Shown: positions 7,318 through 19,371, counted from the first letter of the stretch. The stretch is 39,725 nucleotides of DNA from a virus (IMGVR_UViG_3300044984_001452:1-39725); one strand, 5' to 3'. A program made the numbers and translations. Notes: generated from the letters alone by a model not told the origin.

Positions 7318-8022
7318 TTAGAATCCAAAACCTTTGCTGGAGGTCCTTTGACCTTGTGTGCCAGCAAAATTAGGTGTTGTAGAAGCTTGTGGGGTTCCGT
7401 AAACAATACTTGCATACTTAGAGTACAAGTCCATAGGTGCAGTGGAATAGCCAACTTGCTGACCAGCGGCAGTTAAACCAAGGTTAGCCAAGTTTTGGCC
7501 TTGACCCATAACAGCTTGAGCGGCAGCAGAACGATTAGCTTGTACTTGAGCTTGTGCGCCAGCAGCAGCAGTAGCCTGACGTTGAGCATTTAAAGAAGAC
7601 AAGTTTTTGTCAGCCAAAGCCATGCGTGATGAACCTAGGCCACCTGCCGCTCCATACATGGCATTTTGACCTGCTTGAGATTCACGGGCAGCTTCACGAC
7701 CTGTTTGCAAGGCGGCTTGGATTTGACCTTGTTCATAATTGGGATCAAACAAAGCTTGAAGAGTTTTGTTGCCAGAACTAATCATGGCATTTGCACCCTC
7801 TATCGAGCTTTTAGATACGTCTCCTGCTTGGTTGTAAGCATTCAAGGCGGCTTTATTTTGATAGCCTTGAACATCACGCAAGACAGTTCCTGCATCACCA
7901 ATTGTCTTTTGGTAAGCTGGCAGAAAGGTTTCTTTTAGCGCACCTGTTTGCGCTCTTAATAATTCTGTTTGCTCTGGAGTCATTTGTACCGATGAGGTAC
8001 TTCCACCTTTTCCGAATCCCAT
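7318..8022 (-). CDS. Probable DNA ejection protein (gp7/gp14-like)
   Basis: The 234-residue protein is rich in Ala and Gln and almost wholly helical (residues 15-200), with segments such as LNAQRQATAAAGAQAQVQAN, and has a Gly-rich amphipathic tract (YGAAGGLGSS). It ends GFGF. Size and composition match the smallest ejection protein of short-tailed phages (P22 gp7, T7 gp14), which inserts in the outer membrane. No direct homology can be shown from sequence alone. Confidence 0.5.
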   Translation of the reverse strand: MGFGKGGSTSSVQMTPEQTELLRAQTGALKETFLPAYQKTIGDAGTVLRDVQGYQNKAALNAYNQAGDVSKSSIEGANAMISSGNKTLQALFDPNYEQGQIQAALQTGREAARESQAGQNAMYGAAGGLGSSRMALADKNLSSLNAQRQATAAAGAQAQVQANRSAAAQAVMGQGQNLANLGLTAAGQQVGYSTAPMDLYSKYASIVYGTPQASTTPNFAGTQGQRTSSKGFGF

Positions 8023-8670: not shown

Positions 8671-10413
8671 TTATGTCCAAACTGGAATGTAAAGGGTTGT
8701 GCCATCAATAGTAATTTGCATCCACTCATTGGTTGAATTACTAGCTGGTTTGTTTGTTGCATTAAATGTGGCTATACCAGTACCTGTTACAGTGCCTTGA
8801 ACAAATCTTAATGTATTTGTCCCCGCAGAACCTATTATTTTGTTAGAAAACTCAGAATTTAAATTGGTGACAAGAGTGCTACTGCTTATTCCAAATTGAC
8901 CAAAGCAATACATTCCAAAATTTGCACCGCCCAAGCTAGTGCCATATACTCCTGCCGCTTGTGAACCTGTTCCATTAGTAATACCTAAAACACCATTTCG
9001 AGTAGTTCCAGTGTCATTAGCTATACCAAGTACACCATGACCTGTACCTAGATTATTTCCCGTAATCGCTGTTCCGTTAAATCCAGAGGCATTAGTGGCG
9101 GTAAATGCGGCAATGGCAGATGCGCCATTCATGGATGAATTAGCATATAAACCTGATACACCAATCAGACTATAAATACTATTACCACTAGAGTCATAAA
9201 CTTTTAAATATGAAGATGAAGACTCATTTAAAACTACTCGATTTCCAGTAGATCCTGATTGAACAGTACCTGTAAAAGTACCTGAAGCACCAGTAATGTC
9301 ACCTCTAAAAATACCATTATTGAAATACACATCGCCTGTTGTTCGGCTTATGTAATAACCAGTACTTCCGTAACTAGCTGGCATTCCAAATGTAGGTGGT
9401 GTTGTACCATTCCAGTTATCAGAACGTATGTCTTGGAATACTGAAGCGGCAACAGGTGTGCCCCATGCAGTTTGGCCAGAAGGAACACCATCTAATGTGG
9501 CAGCACTAGAGTTATACCGACCAAAGCTATACCAAACAACATCACCAACAGTTACAGAAGTTGGTGCAACCAATGACCAACCAACTGGTGCAGTAGGACC
9601 TGTAGTATTAGCAGGTGTTGCAGGAGGCGCAGAAGATTGGTTTTGTTGGCGGTAAGCGGTTAACGCACTAATACCATTTCCACCAGTTGATCCCGTTGCT
9701 CCATTAGATGAAAACGCATAAATTGGATAAGACACATTTGTCCAATCCAAAGTAGAAGTTACTGTATTGGCATTAACAACCAAAGGAATGGTAATAGCCC
9801 ACAAAAAACTACCTGGCGTTGTGTTTGTTATTGGCTCTGTTGTCCACCCGCTAGGGGCCGTATAAGCCCCTGTAGCCCATGTGTATGTAGATGTGGTGCT
9901 AGGACGGGTTGGTGGTGTAGAAGAAGCCGTCCAAATGTAAATAGATGGTGCAGCAGTGTTATATGCCGTAGTTGTGGTCACCACATCTAAATCAATTGAA
10001 GCACCTGTTTCTTGCAAATAAGTGGAATTAGGTGCGGTAGTGCCAACAAAGAAGTTAATCTGCCGACCACCATTTGTTTGATAAAACAAAAACTTAGTAG
10101 TGCCAAATCCACCTGCAGCTAAAAACCAAATGTAGTCAGCAGGGTTTGTTGACTCTACAGAACTATTTGTGTTTCTCAATCCATAGTACAAACGGCCTGT
10201 TGGACTGTTACTAAAATTCAAAGTACCATCAAAACTATCAGCATATTTGACAGCAATATACTGATACAAATAAGCAATGACCACACCCGATGGGCCACTG
10301 ATCTGACCATTATTAGGATCGGCAGATAAGTTAGGTCCAAAGTTAGCCAATAAATAATTAATGGCCTCGGAAATCTCCGATTGGGATGGGTCACTAGTTA
10401 GTGCGAATGGCAT
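8671..10413 (-). CDS. Tail fibre/receptor-binding protein
   Basis: The 580-residue Thr/Ser/Asn/Gly-rich protein has no enzymatic motif. It contains two fibre modules of the form W..P.GW..P/W.S/T (about 155-225 and 250-330), a J-protein-like segment YYISRTTGDVYFNNG with GDITGASGTFTGTV (about 355-385), and C-terminal GVLGI/GVLGI/GVYG repeats (about 455-495) typical of trimeric beta-helical shafts. The N-terminal 150 residues probably attach to the tail. Its start overlaps the tail hub stop (TAATG). It most likely recognises the host surface. Confidence 0.7.
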   Translation of the reverse strand: MPFALTSDPSQSEISEAINYLLANFGPNLSADPNNGQISGPSGVVIAYLYQYIAVKYADSFDGTLNFSNSPTGRLYYGLRNTNSSVESTNPADYIWFLAAGGFGTTKFLFYQTNGGRQINFFVGTTAPNSTYLQETGASIDLDVVTTTTAYNTAAPSIYIWTASSTPPTRPSTTSTYTWATGAYTAPSGWTTEPITNTTPGSFLWAITIPLVVNANTVTSTLDWTNVSYPIYAFSSNGATGSTGGNGISALTAYRQQNQSSAPPATPANTTGPTAPVGWSLVAPTSVTVGDVVWYSFGRYNSSAATLDGVPSGQTAWGTPVAASVFQDIRSDNWNGTTPPTFGMPASYGSTGYYISRTTGDVYFNNGIFRGDITGASGTFTGTVQSGSTGNRVVLNESSSSYLKVYDSSGNSIYSLIGVSGLYANSSMNGASAIAAFTATNASGFNGTAITGNNLGTGHGVLGIANDTGTTRNGVLGITNGTGSQAAGVYGTSLGGANFGMYCFGQFGISSSTLVTNLNSEFSNKIIGSAGTNTLRFVQGTVTGTGIATFNATNKPASNSTNEWMQITIDGTTLYIPVWT

Positions 10414-12032
10414 TAGAAAGCATCCTCAGTCACAGTTGCTTGCATATTTAATGCGCTCATTTTCCATGTGTTAGTGGCATCGTTTGAGCCAAATTTAACT
10501 GCCACAGTACGAAATGTATTTTGCTGAGTAGGAACCCAAGGTGTATCAGTATCAATTGTGGTTACACCTGTCTCACCATAAACAGAAGTTTGAGCGGTCG
10601 AATTAGCACCGCCCACAGTAATATTGATTGCACCCGTACCTGCTATTTCAGGCAAAACTCGGTGAATATAGACTTTGGAAGAATAAGGAACAGGACCATT
10701 GGCAGTCTGCAAAGCAATGTTAGTACGCTCAAACTCAGAATCAATGGCAGAACCCACAAATGAGTTGCCAATAGCTGTCTCTACCAACCTAGAGTTATCA
10801 ATACCTCCACGGGCATATACAACGGCTCTAGAAGACAAATTGTAGTAATCAGGTGATGAGTCTACCCAACGAGGTCCTTCAGTGCCCATACAAGCGTTTT
10901 GGACATCTTTAGGAGCATTCCAAACCTGTAAGTCATATCTCCAAGACAACATTTTGTTACACCATCCTGTGGAGGTCAAATCAGGATAGTAAATTTCAAT
11001 CTGAGACTTTTGGGTGTTGTTAACCATAAAAATCCGATTTCCATAAACAGGACTTAGGTTAGCAAAGAAGTAATTCTTAACTTTTTGGTTTCCCAAAGAA
11101 GTAAATTCAGATCCATTAAACACCCAAATATCACGAGCATCTACTCCATAAACATTGGCATCAGTATTTGACCAACAATTATTGTTAATTAATCCTCGAC
11201 CTTGGTTTAATAATCGAACACCAAATATTGGAGCGGTGGTGTTTTGATAGGAAATAGGTGAAAAAACTACTGTATCCCAATAAGAACACACATAGAAATT
11301 GCTTCCAAGGAAAAATCCATCAATTAATGGACCACGAACAGGCACTTCTTGCTCGTTAGCCACGTTAGAAAGAGTAGGTTCCCATGTAACAGGATAGCCT
11401 TGACTAGCAAAAGCTTGCGACCACCTGACAGTTGTTGGGTAGTTATAAGACGTACCGCCAATAACTTTGGTCAAATTGCCTGAAATAAGGATGTTTCCCA
11501 CATTGGGAGAACAAAAATTACGAACAAATGCCGCCCTAGTTGACGTTACACCAACATCATAATTCCATGAAGCATCGGAAGTTACTGTAATTTCATTGCT
11601 TGTTGGCAAGAAATACATGGGGTTTTGGACAGTGTCATTGATAAAAAAGACATTTCCAACCCAAGAAGTGGTGATATTTATATCTTCTGTATATCCGGCA
11701 ATGAAAGCAGAAGGATTAGCTCCAACGCCAGGTGTAATGTTGGATATACCCGTAGCAGTAATCATAAACCACTTGCCTTGGCTAGATGAATTACGGGTTG
11801 CTACGATATATACCCAAGAAGTCTCTGATCTAAACCCACCTTCCATAAAGATGGGCATATCAGTAATGGTAGAAGCAATCTGAATCTCACCAAAAATCTT
11901 TTTAATGCAACGCACATCAGCTTCAATATTCTTCCCGCTGTTGTACTCATTTGGGCCTAAAGCGTTACTAGGCACATCAGGAGTAAAACTCATTGATGTA
12001 AATGGAGTACGGAGGCGGGAATAATCGCTCAT
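10413..12032 (-). CDS. Tail hub/nozzle beta-propeller protein
   Basis: The 539-residue beta-rich protein has repeated Trp/Tyr-containing strands (SETSWVYIVATRN, TSWVGNVFFIND, GSNFYVCSYWDTVVF, DARDIWVFNGSEFTSLG, NNTQKSQIEIYYPD), the pattern of the propeller nozzle proteins of short-tailed phages (T7 gp12 or P22 gp10 class). It starts with an ATGA overlap on the glycosyltransferase stop, so a sugar-transfer enzyme is expressed with a tail core protein. The assignment is by fold-like pattern and position. Confidence 0.6.
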   Translation of the reverse strand: MSDYSRLRTPFTSMSFTPDVPSNALGPNEYNSGKNIEADVRCIKKIFGEIQIASTITDMPIFMEGGFRSETSWVYIVATRNSSSQGKWFMITATGISNITPGVGANPSAFIAGYTEDINITTSWVGNVFFINDTVQNPMYFLPTSNEITVTSDASWNYDVGVTSTRAAFVRNFCSPNVGNILISGNLTKVIGGTSYNYPTTVRWSQAFASQGYPVTWEPTLSNVANEQEVPVRGPLIDGFFLGSNFYVCSYWDTVVFSPISYQNTTAPIFGVRLLNQGRGLINNNCWSNTDANVYGVDARDIWVFNGSEFTSLGNQKVKNYFFANLSPVYGNRIFMVNNTQKSQIEIYYPDLTSTGWCNKMLSWRYDLQVWNAPKDVQNACMGTEGPRWVDSSPDYYNLSSRAVVYARGGIDNSRLVETAIGNSFVGSAIDSEFERTNIALQTANGPVPYSSKVYIHRVLPEIAGTGAINITVGGANSTAQTSVYGETGVTTIDTDTPWVPTQQNTFRTVAVKFGSNDATNTWKMSALNMQATVTEDAF

Positions 12033-13084
12033 GTCACTTCTTCCATCTGCGAAAGATTGGTCAATAGACGGGTGTCTGTAGGGTTGAATTCTAAAGCTTT
12101 CTTACAGAATTCGATAGCCTGTTCTTTCAATCCAAGCCTCCAAGCTGCAATACTTGCATAATCGTATGGTTTTTCAGTCCAAACGCTTGGGTCCATTGTG
12201 TAAACAGCCTGTTTATCTTTAATATTTAGGGCTGAAAGGGCAGCACCATAGCTTTCAGGCCACATACTTAACCTGTAAGTTACAGTCGCCAATTCACACC
12301 ATGGCTCACGGGTATCAGGGGCTTCAGCACAAGCCAATCTGTACCATTTCAAGCCCTCGTGAACCATGCCCAATTCTTCATGGCATTTACCCAATAACCG
12401 CATGGCATAACACCGCTCATTAGGCCAAGTAGCTTCAGGCATGGCTAGATATCGATTTAAAGCCGTTATAGCGTCTTGCCAACGGGAATAGAAGGTTAGC
12501 TCCCGTGCATGGTAAAAAGCGTTTCTAGGGCAGTGTGGGTCTTCTTTTATAGCCAATTCAAGTAATGGCATATATTGGCCACGAGACTTGGTTGGGTCAG
12601 GATGATGGCTGACCAAAAGCATATCTGTATGAGCATAGATCTCATTAGTCCTGCCATCAGGACGGGGATATTCATGGACAGGGTGATGCCAGTGATATCC
12701 ATGGCGGTGGTGGATTTTTTCGTAAAAGAACGATATTCCAGAACCCCAATCAAACTTGTATCTCAAACGAGTTGTTTCAGCAGTCCAAACCCGCTCAATT
12801 TCTTCCCGCCAACCATCTTCCATAATTTCATCAAGGTCTAATGAAATACAGACATCAAAATCACGGGGAATTATGGCAAGGGCAGCATCCCTAGCTTTAT
12901 CAAACCGCCAAGGGCTAATGCAAATATCATGGACTTTTGCACCACATTCCAATGCTAGTTTTACAGTGTCATCAGTAGAGCCTGTATCTGCAATCAGAAT
13001 CAGGTCTGCATCTTTAGCTGAATCACAAAAACGCTGAACAAATTGCTCTTCGTTTTTGGATATGGCGTATACGGCTATTTTCAT
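12029..13084 (-). CDS. Glycosyltransferase family 2 with C-terminal TPRs
   Basis: The 351-residue enzyme has a GT-A domain (1-180): N-terminal strand KIAVYAISKNEE, nucleotide-sugar motif ADTGSTDDT (32-40) and metal-binding DLDE (83-86, a DXD motif). The C-terminal half (about 185-345) carries tetratricopeptide-like repeats (for example ALNRYLAMPEATWPNERCYAMRL is interrupted helical pairs; AIEFCKKALEFNPTD is a clear repeat), as in GT2 enzymes that modify proteins or lipopolysaccharide. The sugar and acceptor are unknown. Gene order (sulfotransferase, APS kinase, GT, tail hub) suggests a virion or surface glycan that is also sulfated. Confidence 0.85.
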   Translation of the reverse strand: MKIAVYAISKNEEQFVQRFCDSAKDADLILIADTGSTDDTVKLALECGAKVHDICISPWRFDKARDAALAIIPRDFDVCISLDLDEIMEDGWREEIERVWTAETTRLRYKFDWGSGISFFYEKIHHRHGYHWHHPVHEYPRPDGRTNEIYAHTDMLLVSHHPDPTKSRGQYMPLLELAIKEDPHCPRNAFYHARELTFYSRWQDAITALNRYLAMPEATWPNERCYAMRLLGKCHEELGMVHEGLKWYRLACAEAPDTREPWCELATVTYRLSMWPESYGAALSALNIKDKQAVYTMDPSVWTEKPYDYASIAAWRLGLKEQAIEFCKKALEFNPTDTRLLTNLSQMEEVT

Positions 13085-13113
13085 TGCTATTCCTATATTA
13101 TTAAATTGTTATT

Positions 13114-13902
13114 TCAACCCACGCCCATTTGTTTGCGTATTTTGGTTGCTGAAATAGCGTGTGTAGCATCATCAAAAGATTCTTGCTCAATCTTGTAGCC
13201 CACATCCCTGCCATAAGTGATATTCACCACATTAGGCACAAGCTGGATCTCATACTGACCTTGGTATAGTGGATCAAGGTCACGCTTGATAAAGTCTTTG
13301 ACCTGATTGGCAGCAAACGGGTTTGAGCCGTTCCATCCTTGGCAGTCTCTGATCTGAATGACTACCTGACCAGTTTTGGCCAAGGCTCTTTCAAACAACT
13401 TGCGGTGGCCTTCATGCCAAGGTTGCCATCTGCCTAACATTTGGACAGTTTCTTTTTGCCAATCAAAGACAGGGCGTTGGCGGTCATCCAAGATGTGAGC
13501 AGCAATGAACTCACCCCACTTTTCAGCCTTTTGCTCAGTAATCCTAAAGTCGTACTGCTCTGGTTGAACAAACACCTTGTTGGTGTCCTCAAAACGGCCT
13601 TGGTTGATAGTGTCAACCCAGACAATCCAATCTGCTTTAAAGTTGTTACGCATCTCAACTAGTGGGGCAACAAAGTCACAGATCACATAATCCACATCGT
13701 AATTGTCAGCCAAATCACGCATTCTTAGACTTTGGCGAATACGGCCTTCATGGGAAAAGTCCCAATCATTGTATTTCTTACGCACATCATCAGCATTCAG
13801 CCACATAACTGTTTTATGGTTGTTTTGCAGATGCTCAAGAATGTGTTGTGCAAGGTAAGTTTTACCAGCACCAGGCAATCCCATAACTAATATGCGTTTC
13901 AT
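13114..13902 (-). CDS. Fused APS kinase-like and nucleotidyltransferase protein
   Basis: The 262-residue protein has two domains. Residues 1-145 resemble adenylylsulfate kinase (CysC): Walker A GLPGAGKT (8-15), NADDVR (36-41, compare DGDNVR), DFSHEGRIRQS (48-58) and CDFVAP (75-80). Residues 150-262 resemble a cytidylyl/adenylyltransferase: GRWQPWHEGH (157-166, HxGH) and ISATKIR (250-256). It could make PAPS from ATP and sulfate, or phosphorylate and nucleotidylate another small molecule; the second domain is much shorter than a normal ATP sulfurylase. It overlaps the sulfotransferase stop by ATGA, which favours PAPS supply for that enzyme. Confidence 0.8.
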   Translation of the reverse strand: MKRILVMGLPGAGKTYLAQHILEHLQNNHKTVMWLNADDVRKKYNDWDFSHEGRIRQSLRMRDLADNYDVDYVICDFVAPLVEMRNNFKADWIVWVDTINQGRFEDTNKVFVQPEQYDFRITEQKAEKWGEFIAAHILDDRQRPVFDWQKETVQMLGRWQPWHEGHRKLFERALAKTGQVVIQIRDCQGWNGSNPFAANQVKDFIKRDLDPLYQGQYEIQLVPNVVNITYGRDVGYKIEQESFDDATHAISATKIRKQMGVG

Positions 13903-14720
13903 CCTTTAACCTTATAAAGTTGTTTCATTGCAAACTCTGGTGCTGGTGTGCGCCAGAACTCTTTACCACTATACTTTTCCCATACCGATTTAGGCAAAAT
14001 TGATGGACGTTCTTGCCATGTTACTTCTTTTCTGACTGTATGCAGACTCTTCATGTTTAAGGCTTTGTCATACACCTCGTTGTCATACTCAACATTCTTG
14101 TAATCGTGTTCGTAATAAGGCTTGCCAATAAACTCATAAATCTCACGCATTACGCTTTCAGGTTGTTTGCACAAAGATTCGTACTCAACCAACATAATCA
14201 TTTTTGGGTTTAGCAGTAAACCTTCTTCTAAGAAGTAATAAGGCTTGACTACCTGACCTTCCTTCTTTACATCCATCAGGGCATCGCACCTTGTGGTGAC
14301 TGTCTGCCTAGCTTCATCATCTGTCAGGGTTGCACCATACAAAGAGTTCTTGGCAGCAATGCGTTCAAAGCTATCCAGTATCCAAGGCAAGTCCCGCACA
14401 CAGCAGATAATCTTGGTCTGTGGGTAAAGGTCTTTTAGCAAAGATGTTTTGGCAGTCCATCCCCTGCTAGTGTCAAACACTACATTAGGAGTAACTGCTT
14501 TGTAGTAAGCGTTAATTAAGTCTTTGAGTATTTGCTTGCGTCTGTCTTCATCTATCAGGTGATTGCTCTCACTGCCCGTAATGACATTGATGGTTGATGC
14601 CACCAAGCCTTGTACGGGTGAGGATATATCTGCATAGAACTCAGGGTTCTGACGCAAGATAGCCGAGAGCAGGGTAGAACCTGACCTTGGCAAACCAGAG
14701 ATGAAAAAAAACTCTTTCAT
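13899..14720 (-). CDS. Sulfotransferase (PAPS-dependent)
   Basis: The 273-residue protein carries the PAPS 5'-phosphosulfate loop GLPRSGSTLL (9-18) right at the N-terminus and a 3'-phosphate site with Arg109 and Ser117 (CVRDLPWILDSFERI), the eight-residue spacing found in sulfotransferases. The C-terminal ESLCKQPESVMREIYEFIG segment is also typical of the family. The acceptor is unknown; candidates are sugars added by the nearby glycosyltransferase, tyrosines of fibre proteins or host lipopolysaccharide. It overlaps both neighbours by ATGA, so it belongs to the late tail operon. Confidence 0.85.
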   Translation of the reverse strand: MKEFFFISGLPRSGSTLLSAILRQNPEFYADISSPVQGLVASTINVITGSESNHLIDEDRRKQILKDLINAYYKAVTPNVVFDTSRGWTAKTSLLKDLYPQTKIICCVRDLPWILDSFERIAAKNSLYGATLTDDEARQTVTTRCDALMDVKKEGQVVKPYYFLEEGLLLNPKMIMLVEYESLCKQPESVMREIYEFIGKPYYEHDYKNVEYDNEVYDKALNMKSLHTVRKEVTWQERPSILPKSVWEKYSGKEFWRTPAPEFAMKQLYKVKG

Positions 14721-15145
14721 GCCTGTGGAATCCAGTTAACTGTGGCTTCATCCCATTGATAACGCACGTTACCGCCATTCATAATGGCATCAGCAGGTCT
14801 TGGTACTGGCGCACCCCAAGTCATTGTGTCCAAGTAACCAATCCAAGATGGGTAAGGTCTACGGGCTTCATGCTCGGCAACTTTAGCTGCATTAAATTCT
14901 TCTTCGGTCAAGACTTGCAAAACACCCGCAATCGTAGTGTCTGCATCGTCATCGCAAGTGCCATAATACTTGGGCGCACGAAGATATGTGCCATCAGGAG
15001 CCGTGCTGACAGGCCATGTAGAACTGTCATGCCATAAGTGAACCCAGCCTTTGACTGCTGGCATTGACGGGCCTGTGCGTTGTGGTTCAACAGTACAAGG
15101 TATTTTTGTAACTGCGTCTACTTCGGTTATACAAATGTGCTTCAT
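14717..15145 (-). CDS. Tail fibre assembly-like protein
   Basis: The 142-residue protein has a C-terminal motif RRPYPSWIGYLDTMTWGAPVPRPAD...YQWDEATVNWIPQ, a pattern I know from phage proteins beside fibre genes (APVPRP followed by WDE.T..W). The N-terminal part holds several Trp and Asp residues (GWVHLWHDSSTWPVS). It lies between the lectin-like proteins and the sulfotransferase and may be a chaperone or a small fibre subunit. Function is inferred from position and motif. Confidence 0.55.
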   Translation of the reverse strand: MKHICITEVDAVTKIPCTVEPQRTGPSMPAVKGWVHLWHDSSTWPVSTAPDGTYLRAPKYYGTCDDDADTTIAGVLQVLTEEEFNAAKVAEHEARRPYPSWIGYLDTMTWGAPVPRPADAIMNGGNVRYQWDEATVNWIPQA

Positions 15146-15157
15146 AATTTCTCCTAA

Positions 15158-15898
15158 TTAAACTGCGACTCTGCGAACTGCTCTAACATGAAGTGAACTG
15201 GCTTTAGTAAAATACCCAGAGTTTTGACTACCATTACTAAAGCCCTGACTCCATGCCGCTGTGTCAGAAGATTGGGTACTTGACCAATAATTAACCTGTT
15301 CATAAGACTCTGCATTTCCCGTTTGGAAAACTGTTGCAGATGTTTGCGCTGGTGTACCCGATGTGTAATTAGTGCTTACAGGCTCTGGAGATACGGCATT
15401 TGCATTTGAACCCGAACCTGTATTATTAGTTGTAGGGTCTGCTTTTAAAAAGAAATAACACACTTCAAGTTCGTTCTTGGCTGGCATATACCAATCTGTA
15501 AACCCGCCAGCACTAACAGCTTTACAGAACTGTGCCGCTGGATATGTAGCACTGTTCATAGTTGTGCTATTTGCGGGGCCGTCAATGACGGATGTTGGGT
15601 CATTACTAGGCGTAGATGTTCTAAACTGTTTACTATTGCTATATGCAGTAGATTTAGGGCCTACAACTAAATTATAAATAACACCACTTACATTTATTTG
15701 TCCTGCAAAAAATCCACCGCCATAAACTTGACCAGGCACTAATGGAGCAGTATTTCCCGCAGTAGGCCACAACCCTTGCTTCTTTAGCTGCATGGCTTGG
15801 TCAAGAGTCCAAACACCTTGTGCCGTGCTTGTGTCATACGGCCCAGATGGCAGTGGTGGGCTTTTAGTAATAAACCCGCCTGGATATTTTTGGCTCAT
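15158..15898 (-). CDS. Lectin-like fibre protein 1 (Lcl/DUF1566-type domain)
   Basis: The 246-residue protein is the first of three tandem paralogues when read from the left. Core motifs are YGGGFFAGQI, LVVGPKS, DWYMPAKNELEVCYFFLK, a YWSSTQSSDTAAW strand and the end VRAVRRVAV. The WSST...F.NG...VRAVR layout is that of C-type-lectin-fold domains such as Legionella Lcl C-terminal and diversified phage receptor-binding proteins. It probably forms an exposed ligand-binding head. No reverse transcriptase or template repeat is present, so active diversification is unlikely. The start follows AAGGAATAACC. Confidence 0.7.
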   Translation of the reverse strand: MSQKYPGGFITKSPPLPSGPYDTSTAQGVWTLDQAMQLKKQGLWPTAGNTAPLVPGQVYGGGFFAGQINVSGVIYNLVVGPKSTAYSNSKQFRTSTPSNDPTSVIDGPANSTTMNSATYPAAQFCKAVSAGGFTDWYMPAKNELEVCYFFLKADPTTNNTGSGSNANAVSPEPVSTNYTSGTPAQTSATVFQTGNAESYEQVNYWSSTQSSDTAAWSQGFSNGSQNSGYFTKASSLHVRAVRRVAV

Positions 15899-15907
15899 GG
15901 TTATTCC

Positions 15908-16579
15908 TTAGACAGCAATTCTGCGAATGGCACGAACTCGAGCCGAATAATTTTTATAGTCTCCAGTTTGATTGCCGCTGGTAAAAACATTAACACCTCC
16001 AGAAGCTGTAGAAAATTCGGTACTAACCCAATAAATAGCAGAAGCAAACGCTTCTGTGTTGCCTGTTTGAAAATCAGTAGCTGAAGTTTGTGTAGGAACG
16101 CTTGTGCTGTAATTGCTTGCTCTTGCGGGGACAGCGTTAGCGTTTATTCCAGAAGATGTATTGTTAGAGTCTGTTGTAGGCTTCAAGTTGTAATAGCAAA
16201 TCTCCATTTCGTTTTTGGAGGGCATATACCAATCTGTTTGACCACCCGTAGATAAATCATTACAAAAGTGAGCCGCAGGGTAAACAGTAGAACTACCATC
16301 AGCAACCATATCAGCAGTATTTTGTATCCCGTTAATAACACTATCTGCGCCAGTAGTTGTTGTTCTTGCATTTTTCCACTGCAACGTACTTTGTGCAGAT
16401 GCAATAGGGCCAACAACTAAATTGTAGTCAGCTATGCCATTACCAGCAGTTGAAATTTGTCCCGCAAAAAAACCGCCACCATAAGCCGAACCAATAGCTG
16501 GTATTTGCAGAGGCCAAGTGCCAGCCGCTATAGCTTGCATCTGAGTCTGTAAAGTAAAAATACCTGAAAAACTTGGCAT
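15908..16579 (-). CDS. Lectin-like fibre protein 2 (Lcl/DUF1566-type domain)
   Basis: The 223-residue second paralogue has YGGGFFAGQI, LVVGPIAS, DWYMPSKNEMEICYYNLKP, the YWVSTEFS strand and the end VRAIRRIAV. The region facing the ligand site (after YWVSTEFS) differs strongly from its two neighbours while the framework is kept, as expected for receptor-binding loops under diversifying selection. It is nine bases from the first paralogue. Confidence 0.7.
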   Translation of the reverse strand: MPSFSGIFTLQTQMQAIAAGTWPLQIPAIGSAYGGGFFAGQISTAGNGIADYNLVVGPIASAQSTLQWKNARTTTTGADSVINGIQNTADMVADGSSTVYPAAHFCNDLSTGGQTDWYMPSKNEMEICYYNLKPTTDSNNTSSGINANAVPARASNYSTSVPTQTSATDFQTGNTEAFASAIYWVSTEFSTASGGVNVFTSGNQTGDYKNYSARVRAIRRIAV

Positions 16580-16587
16580 ATATTTCC

Positions 16588-17511
16588 TTAGACTGCTACT
16601 CTGCGAACTGCACGAACACGCAATCCATAGGATTTAGTAATTCTTGCATACGTTCCACTACTTCTTCCATTGTTGAAATCTGTGGTGTAGGCTTTGGTAG
16701 CAGAGAATTCTGTACTGTTCCAATAAACAGTGCCTGGATTAAACGCTTGTGCGCCAGTTGGGTCTATAAACAAAGTTGCTGATGTTTGTGCAGGATCACC
16801 GCCTGTATAGTTACTTGCCCTAGCAGGAACTGCATTAGCGTTTATGCCTGAACCTGAATCATTGCCTGTTGCTGTTGGTTTTAAGTTGTAGTAACAGACT
16901 TCTATTTCATTCTTGGCTGGCATATACCAATCAGAATACCCACCAATAGTAAGACCTTCACAGAAAAATGCCGCTGGATGTAACGCATCATTCATGGATG
17001 CGCTATTTGCAGGGCCGTTAATTACAGAGGTTGCACCAGAATCACTTGTGTTTAAGGTATTAAATGCTTTACCAGAAGAATCAGCAGTTGATTTAGGCCC
17101 AATAACTAAGTTGTAATCTGCAACGCTATTACCCGCAGTCGAAATTTGCCCTGCGTAATAACCGCCTTGATAAGCATCACCTATTTGCATAGCGGGAGTT
17201 ACACTGTTACTTGCCGCACTTAAAGAACTAGGCCCGTAACTGTTATTTGCCCAAACTTTAAATGTGTAAGCAGTCCCGTTGGTTAATCCAGTTACAGTAA
17301 CAGGTGAAGATGCCGCAGTACCCGTAAACCCGCCAGGGGTTGAAATTGCTATGTATGAAGTAATTGCAGAACCACCAATGTCAGATGGCGCAGTAAAAGC
17401 AACAGATGCAGAACTACCCCCAGCCGTGGCCGTACCAATGGTAGGCGCATTAGGGTTTTTTAGCGGGTTAAAAAATGCGGAGATAAACCCAGCAGCGTAA
17501 CGCATGGACAT
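16588..17511 (-). CDS. Lectin-like fibre protein 3 with fibronectin III domain
   Basis: The 307-residue third paralogue has an added N-terminal fibronectin type III domain (about 22-108: PTIGTATAGGSSASVAFTAP, GGSAITSYIA, VTGLTNGTAYTFKVWANNSYG). The lectin-like domain follows (YQGGYYAGQI, DWYMPAKNEIEVCYYNLKP, YWNSTEFSATKAY, end VRAVRRVAV). The Fn3 part is a common phage surface add-on that binds carbohydrates weakly or acts as a spacer. It is probably a virion surface or fibre-tip protein. Confidence 0.75.
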   Translation of the reverse strand: MSMRYAAGFISAFFNPLKNPNAPTIGTATAGGSSASVAFTAPSDIGGSAITSYIAISTPGGFTGTAASSPVTVTGLTNGTAYTFKVWANNSYGPSSLSAASNSVTPAMQIGDAYQGGYYAGQISTAGNSVADYNLVIGPKSTADSSGKAFNTLNTSDSGATSVINGPANSASMNDALHPAAFFCEGLTIGGYSDWYMPAKNEIEVCYYNLKPTATGNDSGSGINANAVPARASNYTGGDPAQTSATLFIDPTGAQAFNPGTVYWNSTEFSATKAYTTDFNNGRSSGTYARITKSYGLRVRAVRRVAV

Positions 17512-17520
17512 TGTGAGTCC

Positions 17521-17892
17521 TTATGTTATTTCTTCAAAACTAATTGTAGCAACCAAGTCACCAGCCGTGCCAGCAATTGCACCAATTGATTGATTTTCTA
17601 GTAAGTAAAACATTGTAGTTTTATCAGTCACAATCAAAGATGCATCCGCAGGAACAGAGATAGTTGAGGCAATTGCTGTTGCCGTTCCACCCAAAGATGC
17701 CGCAGAATAAATATTGACTGTTACATCAGCCGCTGCCGTGCCATCAATGTTTGCAATTAAGATTGAGTTAATCTTAAATACTTTATTGCTTGATGCAGCA
17801 TTTGAAGCTAATTGCGTTGCACTTGTACCAACAGCAACCGATAAAGAATTACCGATAATACTTGTGACGTTTACGATATTAGGATTTGCCAT
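17521..17892 (-). CDS. Small beta virion protein next to the fibre stalk
   Basis: The 123-residue product is beta-rich (VFKINSILIANIDGTAAADV, then ISVPADASLIVTDKTTMFYL). The phrase INSILIANIDGT...ADVTV with ISVPADASLIV is familiar from small structural proteins of many environmental phages. There is no enzymatic motif. It may be a decoration or fibre-junction protein. The start follows AAGGAAATATT. Confidence 0.55.
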   Translation of the reverse strand: MANPNIVNVTSIIGNSLSVAVGTSATQLASNAASSNKVFKINSILIANIDGTAAADVTVNIYSAASLGGTATAIASTISVPADASLIVTDKTTMFYLLENQSIGAIAGTAGDLVATISFEEIT

Positions 17893-17901
17893 AATATTTC
17901 C

Positions 17902-19371
17902 TTAGAAACCAAAGATCATTGCCAACGCAATGGATTTACCAGTTGTAACGCCAGGTCCCGTGGGTCCCGTAGGACCAAGAGATCCTGTGGGTCCCGTGGG
18001 TCCCGCTACAGAAGAAGCCGCACCTGTAGGTCCTGTGGGGCCAAGATCGCCCGTGGGTCCTGTAGGTCCAACTGCCCCGTTAGTTCCTGCCGCACCCGTG
18101 GGTCCAGTGGGACCTGCAACAGTAGATGCCGCACCAGTTGAACCTGTCGGACCTGTGGGGCCCGTAATGGATGTTCCTGTGCTACCTGTAGGACCTGTTG
18201 GACCAACAGATCCTGTTGGACCAAGGTTGGTGTACATCACTTGAGCAGCAGTAAGAATTATTGATGGCGTTCTAGGATAAGTTCCACTTGCCGCTAATGC
18301 TTCTAATGAAACGCTTGTAGTTGCTGTTTGCCAATAAACTTGAATGTAATCAGATGCCGCAAGATTTAAAACATAATTAACTGTCAAAATCTCAGATGAG
18401 AATGAACTTCCTTGTTTATCAGGAACATCATAGTGAGAATTTGTATCTGCTATATCTGTACCATTTTTACGCAACCAAACTTGCGTTGAACCATTTGATG
18501 TACTTGTATTAGTAAATTGAATTGAAAAAGTGATGCTATAAACACCCGCATTTGCAAAAGTTACACGACTAGTTAATCCAATAGAAACACCATTGTTTGC
18601 CGTATCAGCACTATTTATTGTGATTGCTTGCGGAGTATTTACTGCAGCAGCAGTTTGAGTTGTTGTATCCCAAAAAGAACCCCAATAAGCCAAAGCACCA
18701 CCTGGCCCTGTGGGTCCAAGTGCGCCTGTGGGTCCCGTGGGTCCTGCAATTCCTGTACTGCCTGTGGGTCCAACATTTCCCGTATTTCCCGTAGGACCTG
18801 TAGGTCCAGCAACTGTTGAGGCAGCTCCTGTAGATCCAGTAGGTCCTGTTGCGCCTGTAGGTCCAACAACACTTGAAGCAGCACCTGTTGGGCCTGTTGG
18901 ACCAGTAGATCCTATGCCTGTAGGTCCTGTTGCGCCCGTGGGTCCTAAAGCCGTACTAGCTGCGCCTGTGGGACCTGTTGGGCCTGTTGCTCCTACTGAT
19001 CCCGTAGGTCCTGCAACTGTAGATGCGGCTCCCGTAGGGCCTGTGGGTCCTGCGCTACCTGTGGGGCCTGTGGGTCCAATAGTACCTGCAAATGGGGCAG
19101 GAACTGTCCAAACTAAAGCGGCATTACTGCGAGAATTGACAAGAGAAATAGAAAACCAAATAGTATTTGTAGGACTAGAAGGAGGAGCAGTTGTCCATCC
19201 TGCGGGAGCAGTTCCTACATTAGTAGCAAAATTCCAAGAACCGCCAGTTGGAGTTGCAGGTTGTGTTGCTGAATCTTTAAAAATAAACCACTCAAAATAC
19301 GTTCCACCAAAATTAACAGTGTTGCCGTATAAACCAACTGATTCAGAACTTCCGTAAATGCTTGTAGCCAT
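17902..19371 (-). CDS. Collagen-like stalk fibre with jelly-roll insert
   Basis: The 489-residue protein has an N-terminal fibre module (about 20-95, [17 protein letters not shown]), a collagen-like region of Gly-Pro-Thr repeats (98-225), a C1q/TNF-like jelly-roll-like domain (about 228-382, with [20 protein letters not shown] and [11 protein letters not shown]), a second collagen-like region (383-474) and a conserved end [14 protein letters not shown]. It should trimerise into a long stalk, with the jelly roll as a knob or joint. It may carry or align the three lectin-like proteins encoded just downstream, echoing Legionella Lcl, where stalk and head are fused. Confidence 0.8.

Follow-up and report, generated by a model that had tools for sequence, protein, structure and literature searches.

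Why does a freshwater phage carry a sulfotransferase and a putative source of the sulfate donor PAPS beside its fibre genes? The genes in question come from a virus record in IMG/VR; its 39,725 bases are analysed here as a whole and called the window, and the minus strand holds a phage structural set (terminase, portal and major head protein). The gene run of interest consists of a 489-aa fibre, a 123-aa gene, three Lcl_C adhesins, a 142-aa gene, the sulfotransferase, a fused kinase-nucleotidyltransferase (kinase-NTase) and a glycosyltransferase (GT). The features are as follows; module A is described further below.

17521-17892, minus strand: 123-aa gene ahead of the adhesins; relatives immediately precede the adhesins in many loci of module A
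16588-17511, minus strand: Lcl_C-type adhesin 3, a paralogue resembling adhesin 1 in sequence
15908-16579, minus strand: Lcl_C-type adhesin 2, a paralogue resembling adhesin 1 in sequence
15158-15898, minus strand: Lcl_C-type adhesin 1 with a C-terminal DUF1566/Lcl_C domain (PF07603, 3e-11); upstream of the sulfotransferase and kinase pair in module A loci
14717-15145, minus strand: 142-aa gene, possibly fibre-associated (ORF call; weak match to PHROG 7759)
13899-14720, minus strand: sulfotransferase, 273 aa (Sulfotransfer_3, 5e-18; 5' PAPS loop GLPRSGSTLL, 3'-phosphate site R109/S117)
13114-13902, minus strand: kinase-NTase, 262 aa, putative compact PAPS synthase (APS_kinase PF01583, 5e-9; CTP_transf_like PF01467, 2e-4)
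12029-13084, minus strand: GT2-TPR glycosyltransferase, 351 aa (Glycos_transf_2, 5e-5; TPR_14, 4.5e-9)
10413-12032, minus strand: next virion gene after the GT (PHROG 3287, 'virion structural protein')

The first-pass annotation had read the sulfotransferase, the kinase-NTase and the GT as a single sulfation and glycosylation set. Its genes were recovered as minus-strand ORFs with Pfam matches, and the motifs that it had named (GLPRSGSTLL, GLPGAGKT, HEGH, ISATKIR and DLDE) were all found in the encoded proteins. Both Pfam matches of the kinase-NTase lie above the curated cut-off. It was also right that most joints are ATGA overlaps, as this holds for three of the four (14717-14720, 13899-13902 and 12029-12032); at the fourth, 29 nt separate the kinase from the GT and include a ribosome-site-like AGGAA. 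The last overlap does couple the GT to the following gene as claimed, but the name 'tail hub' for that gene is not established by its PHROG match. In addition, the dN/dS of the kinase and the sulfotransferase against their relatives was roughly 0.02-0.09, and thus both genes are under purifying selection. Positions 15158-19371 contain a collagen-repeat fibre followed by the three tandem Lcl_C-type paralogues. Two Pro/Gly-rich ORFs on the plus strand (17930-18244 and 18710-19357) are antisense to the collagen repeats and are most likely a by-product of these repeats, not genes.

We propose, with confidence a little short of even, that the run contains a mobile adhesin-plus-sulfation module, in which the kinase-NTase makes PAPS, the sulfotransferase uses it, and the adhesin or fibre is sulfated. 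In the proposed mechanism, the C-terminal NTase would join sulfate to AMP from ATP to give APS, the N-terminal kinase would phosphorylate APS to PAPS, and the sulfotransferase would take PAPS as sulfate donor. With lower confidence, the acceptor would be the adhesin or fibre encoded in the same module, and sulfate would be added to the virion adhesin as the particle is assembled. If true, a phage would here modify its own attachment proteins with sulfate, which would be unusual.

To see which genes travel together, viral contigs were searched separately from the kinase, the sulfotransferase and the GT, and the best 80 matches of each search, which lean to close relatives, were inspected. Among the best 80 sulfotransferase loci, the kinase was directly downstream in 79 (in 76 of 76 where there was at least 300 bp of room), and the 142-aa gene was upstream in all 80. 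From the kinase side, 486 viral loci encode a relative, and in the best 80 of these the sulfotransferase was present in 74, within 200 bp in 56. The sulfotransferase and the kinase-NTase are therefore a strict pair, and this reciprocal linkage supports the main explanation. Two loci carry two tandem kinase-NTase genes beside the sulfotransferase (L193:7488-9172 and L239:7037-8834).

The GT behaved differently. It was found in only 2 of the best 80 sulfotransferase loci, and the best 80 GT loci included the kinase in 2 and the neighbouring structural gene in 43; 66 of the 68 among them with at least 1.5 kb upstream lacked the pair. The GT thus accompanies its structural neighbour rather than the pair, and belongs to the phage backbone, outside the sulfation module. 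The proposed trio thus does not stand: the search for it in other phages, which had been suggested, almost always returned the pair without the GT. The interpretation is corrected to an adhesin-sulfotransferase-kinase module, while the earlier link of a sulfotransferase and a putative PAPS-making enzyme to fibre and adhesin genes is upheld by the viral loci.

The mobility of the module was seen by comparison with sister phages. In 29 near-complete sister records (terminase 79-99% identical), neither the kinase-NTase nor a Sulfotransfer_3 gene was found in any. The absence of the kinase is informative, because a very similar kinase profile does match in bacterial genomes. Most backbone genes of the window have counterparts with 74-98% identity in the sister L339 (the GT 93%), where the GT and the structural gene come immediately after a collagen-type fibre of 900 aa. 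The module of the window sits between fibre and GT when compared with this sister, and its insertion there and its absence from the 29 sisters also support the main explanation.

Two forms of the module were found. In module A, between one and three Lcl adhesins precede the 142-aa gene, which is followed by the sulfotransferase and the kinase, and the genes downstream of the module vary widely among loci; the 123-aa gene is probably also part of the module. Module B consists of a sulfotransferase of ~590 aa, two adhesin-like genes (one with RCC1 repeats) and a 136-aa gene, together with a kinase of about 90-93% identity. Thus, the Lcl_C adhesins, the 142-aa gene, the sulfotransferase and the kinase-NTase form a mobile unit on many phage backbones, and the presence of adhesins in both modules is further support for the main explanation. 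Examples of module B, with RCC1-repeat or Lcl-like genes, are L175:3484-7970, L056, L061, L078 and others; the C-terminal half of its ~590-aa sulfotransferase has no Pfam match.

Does the kinase-NTase make PAPS? The N-terminal domain is APS-kinase-like by both sequence and predicted fold. In a profile search against solved structures, APS kinases led (2yvu, 6e-14). The AF2 model (mean pLDDT 90.5) had APS kinases or PAPS synthetase as its first 47 Foldseek matches with PAPSS1 on top, and the whole-protein superposition was poor (rmsd about 13). The PF01583 match (36.8 bits against a cut-off of 21.1) covers only profile positions 5-94 of 152, and the NCBIfam apsK profile scored 26.4 against a cut-off of 138.7. 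In 28 diverse members aligned with 2yvu, G-x-x-G-x-GK, D38, R41, F49, R54, R60 and F77-x-x-P80 were invariant or at least 90% conserved; we take this P-loop and these residues to be the ones that contact APS.

The sequence of the C-terminal domain marks it as a shortened nucleotidyltransferase of NadM-like type, and not as a recognisable ATP sulfurylase. Its best matches in the solved-structure profile search were NadM-type NMN adenylyltransferases (2e-10). An ordinary ATP sulfurylase (Sat, PF01747) was rejected, as no such match was found in Pfam or in the PDB profile search at E up to 10. The domain shares with NadM the GRxQPxHxGH start and the ISxTxIR end; in the 28 sampled members, GRxQPxHxGH and GRxVG were kept in all, ISATxIR was nearly invariant, and both domains of the protein were conserved together. 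It was also rejected as an ordinary NadM: its scores are far below curated cut-offs (30.6 against 127 bits and 28.3 against 181 bits), and in comparison with NadM MJ0541 it lacks about 25 residues in the middle of the domain, with a low-scoring second aligned piece. The shortened segment is presumably the region where NadM binds NMN. Animal PAPSS1/2 have the same order, an N-terminal APS kinase and then an HxxH-type nucleotidyltransferase, but they are about 600 aa long against 262 aa here, and their fused ATP sulfurylase has no sequence similarity to the C-terminal domain here.

This NadM affinity weakens the main explanation, and it raises another one, that the kinase domain converts host-made APS to PAPS and the NTase domain has some other or regulatory role. 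We regard it as distinctly unlikely. The nearness of the kinase domain to APS kinases by profile and fold, the resemblance of the NTase to NadM and the production of APS by many hosts all agree with it; the conservation of both domains together and the genomes of SAR11 speak against it.

The kinase-NTase family is also found in bacteria. In bacterial loci L097, L099, L105, L111 and L154, Sulfotransfer_1 and/or Sulfotransfer_3 genes adjoin the kinase-NTase, and in Rhizobium sp. BK376 a single 555-aa ORF joins Sulfotransfer_2, APS kinase and NTase in frame. Both the recurrent pairing with several sulfotransferase families and this fusion support a role in making PAPS. In SAR11, we examined 147 family genomes, many of them incomplete, with kinase classes assigned by hand from the results table; the kinase domain was present in 59 of the 147, in most fused to or beside the NTase. 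Sulfotransfer_3 (E at most 0.001) occurred in 42 of the 59 genomes with the kinase and in 22 of the 88 without it (P = 3e-8, phylogeny ignored). CysD was found in 8 of the 147 genomes, none with the kinase (P = 0.014, phylogeny ignored), and PF01747 in 5. Of the 42 SAR11 genomes with kinase and sulfotransferase, 40 lacked both CysD and PF01747, a count to be read with the incompleteness of many genomes in mind. This co-occurrence likewise supports the PAPS role, and it counts, within the same limit, against a dependence on host-made APS.

Taken with the pairing, the kinase-NTase likely makes PAPS, as the predicted donor for the sulfotransferase. The earlier idea that a short NTase replaces ATP sulfurylase is favoured indirectly by the genome context, but not by the sequence, which is nearest to NadM. 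More tentatively, and with rather less confidence than the main explanation, the C-terminal domain may be a third, compact ATP sulfurylase related to the NadM fold, so that a 262-aa minimal PAPS synthase would provide PAPS to SAR11 bacteria without known ATP sulfurylases and the phages would sulfate their own adhesins. If so, a source of PAPS would be explained for many SAR11 and marine bacteria that have sulfotransferases and no known ATP sulfurylase, and the enzyme, a family also common in ocean bacteria without a known route to PAPS, would be a compact bifunctional one useful for in vitro sulfation. Of the titles and abstracts returned by searches of the open literature on phages, PAPS and sulfotransferases or on SAR11, none described this family.

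Other observations in SAR11 weaken the main explanation. Some genomes have the NTase alone, without the kinase. Furthermore, the kinase and the NTase are often encoded separately, by genes that overlap (L163:937-10052, and similarly L118, L161 and L124), and this split pair frequently shares a run with a Rieske oxygenase, an M24 peptidase, an enoyl-CoA hydratase and a CoA-binding protein, a catabolic-looking operon.

Larger phages also weaken it, since among 26 larger phage records with a related kinase, Sulfotransfer_1 or Sulfotransfer_3 was above cut-off in only 2. A homologue with 38-40% identity occurs in four Casjensviridae phages and in DLP_6, with no annotated sulfotransferase nearby. 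In one case, Stenotrophomonas phage Bhz60 (L006:3559-4735), a 38% identical kinase-NTase overlaps a NADAR-domain gene, and no annotated sulfotransferase lies within 4 kb. Some members of the family may have a second function. The larger phages, the NADAR neighbour and the closeness of the NTase to NadM would fit an enzyme of NAD or other nucleotide metabolism with an incidental sulfotransferase neighbourhood. This seems very improbable to us, given the repeated pairing with different sulfotransferase families, the Rhizobium fusion, a kinase nearest to APS kinases and an NTase with a shorter middle segment than that of NadM. Two families of ~207 aa near the kinase in larger phages (L187:5316-6517 and 7364-7993; also L188, L189, L190, L220, L224 and L244) may be very divergent sulfotransferases; for one of them, Sulfotransfer_3 was the sole Pfam match (4e-4, below cut-off), and profile comparisons were weak.

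The sulfotransferase of the window has the signature of PAPS-dependent enzymes, the 5' loop and the R/S 3'-phosphate site, and R12, G14, T16, R109 and S117 were invariant in 17 sulfotransferases with identity down to 24%. The invariance of the PAPS-site residues, together with a kinase domain nearest to APS kinases by profile and fold, supports the main explanation. The closest solved structures, by profile and by predicted fold, are tyrosylprotein sulfotransferases (TPSTs). TPST1/2 share the PAPS loop and the 3'-phosphate site with this protein. The catalytic residue of TPSTs is a glutamate after the PAPS loop; the aligned positions here are not acidic, and relatives keep no acid there either. 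Thus, the protein was not accepted as a TPST. H227, which is invariant, is a candidate for the catalytic role. A conserved Tyr-Tyr-acidic stretch in the 142-aa protein is a possible sulfation site, but other Tyr residues show the same degree of conservation, and the protein has no relationship to the 136-aa gene of module B.

The linkage of the sulfotransferase gene to adhesin genes suggests a virion protein as acceptor, and it is gene position and linkage solely that point to the fibre or adhesin. The same pathway could act on a host surface glycan or lipid, leading to a superinfection block or a receptor change, with the adhesin link reflecting host specificity only. Genes of one adhesin-receptor system could indeed move together, and marine bacteria make sulfated capsules (PMC11641403). 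Nevertheless, we consider a host acceptor unlikely, since the genes are part of the late run of structural genes and are translationally coupled to the adhesin block. The closest solved sulfotransferases also act on proteins, a weak argument here as the TPST catalytic glutamate is absent.

Sulfation of the virion adhesin, which we prefer, may be compared with Legionella Lcl, the namesake of the Lcl_C domain, which binds sulphated glycosaminoglycans (PMC11162425). This binding could be compatible, by analogy, with a virion-protein acceptor as well as with a host-glycan acceptor. Legionella Lcl has a collagen-repeat stalk and an Lcl_C (DUF1566) tip (PMC11162425), the same combination as in the window. 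Unlike in Lcl, the stalk and the tips here are separate phage genes, and the sulfation genes are in the same run.
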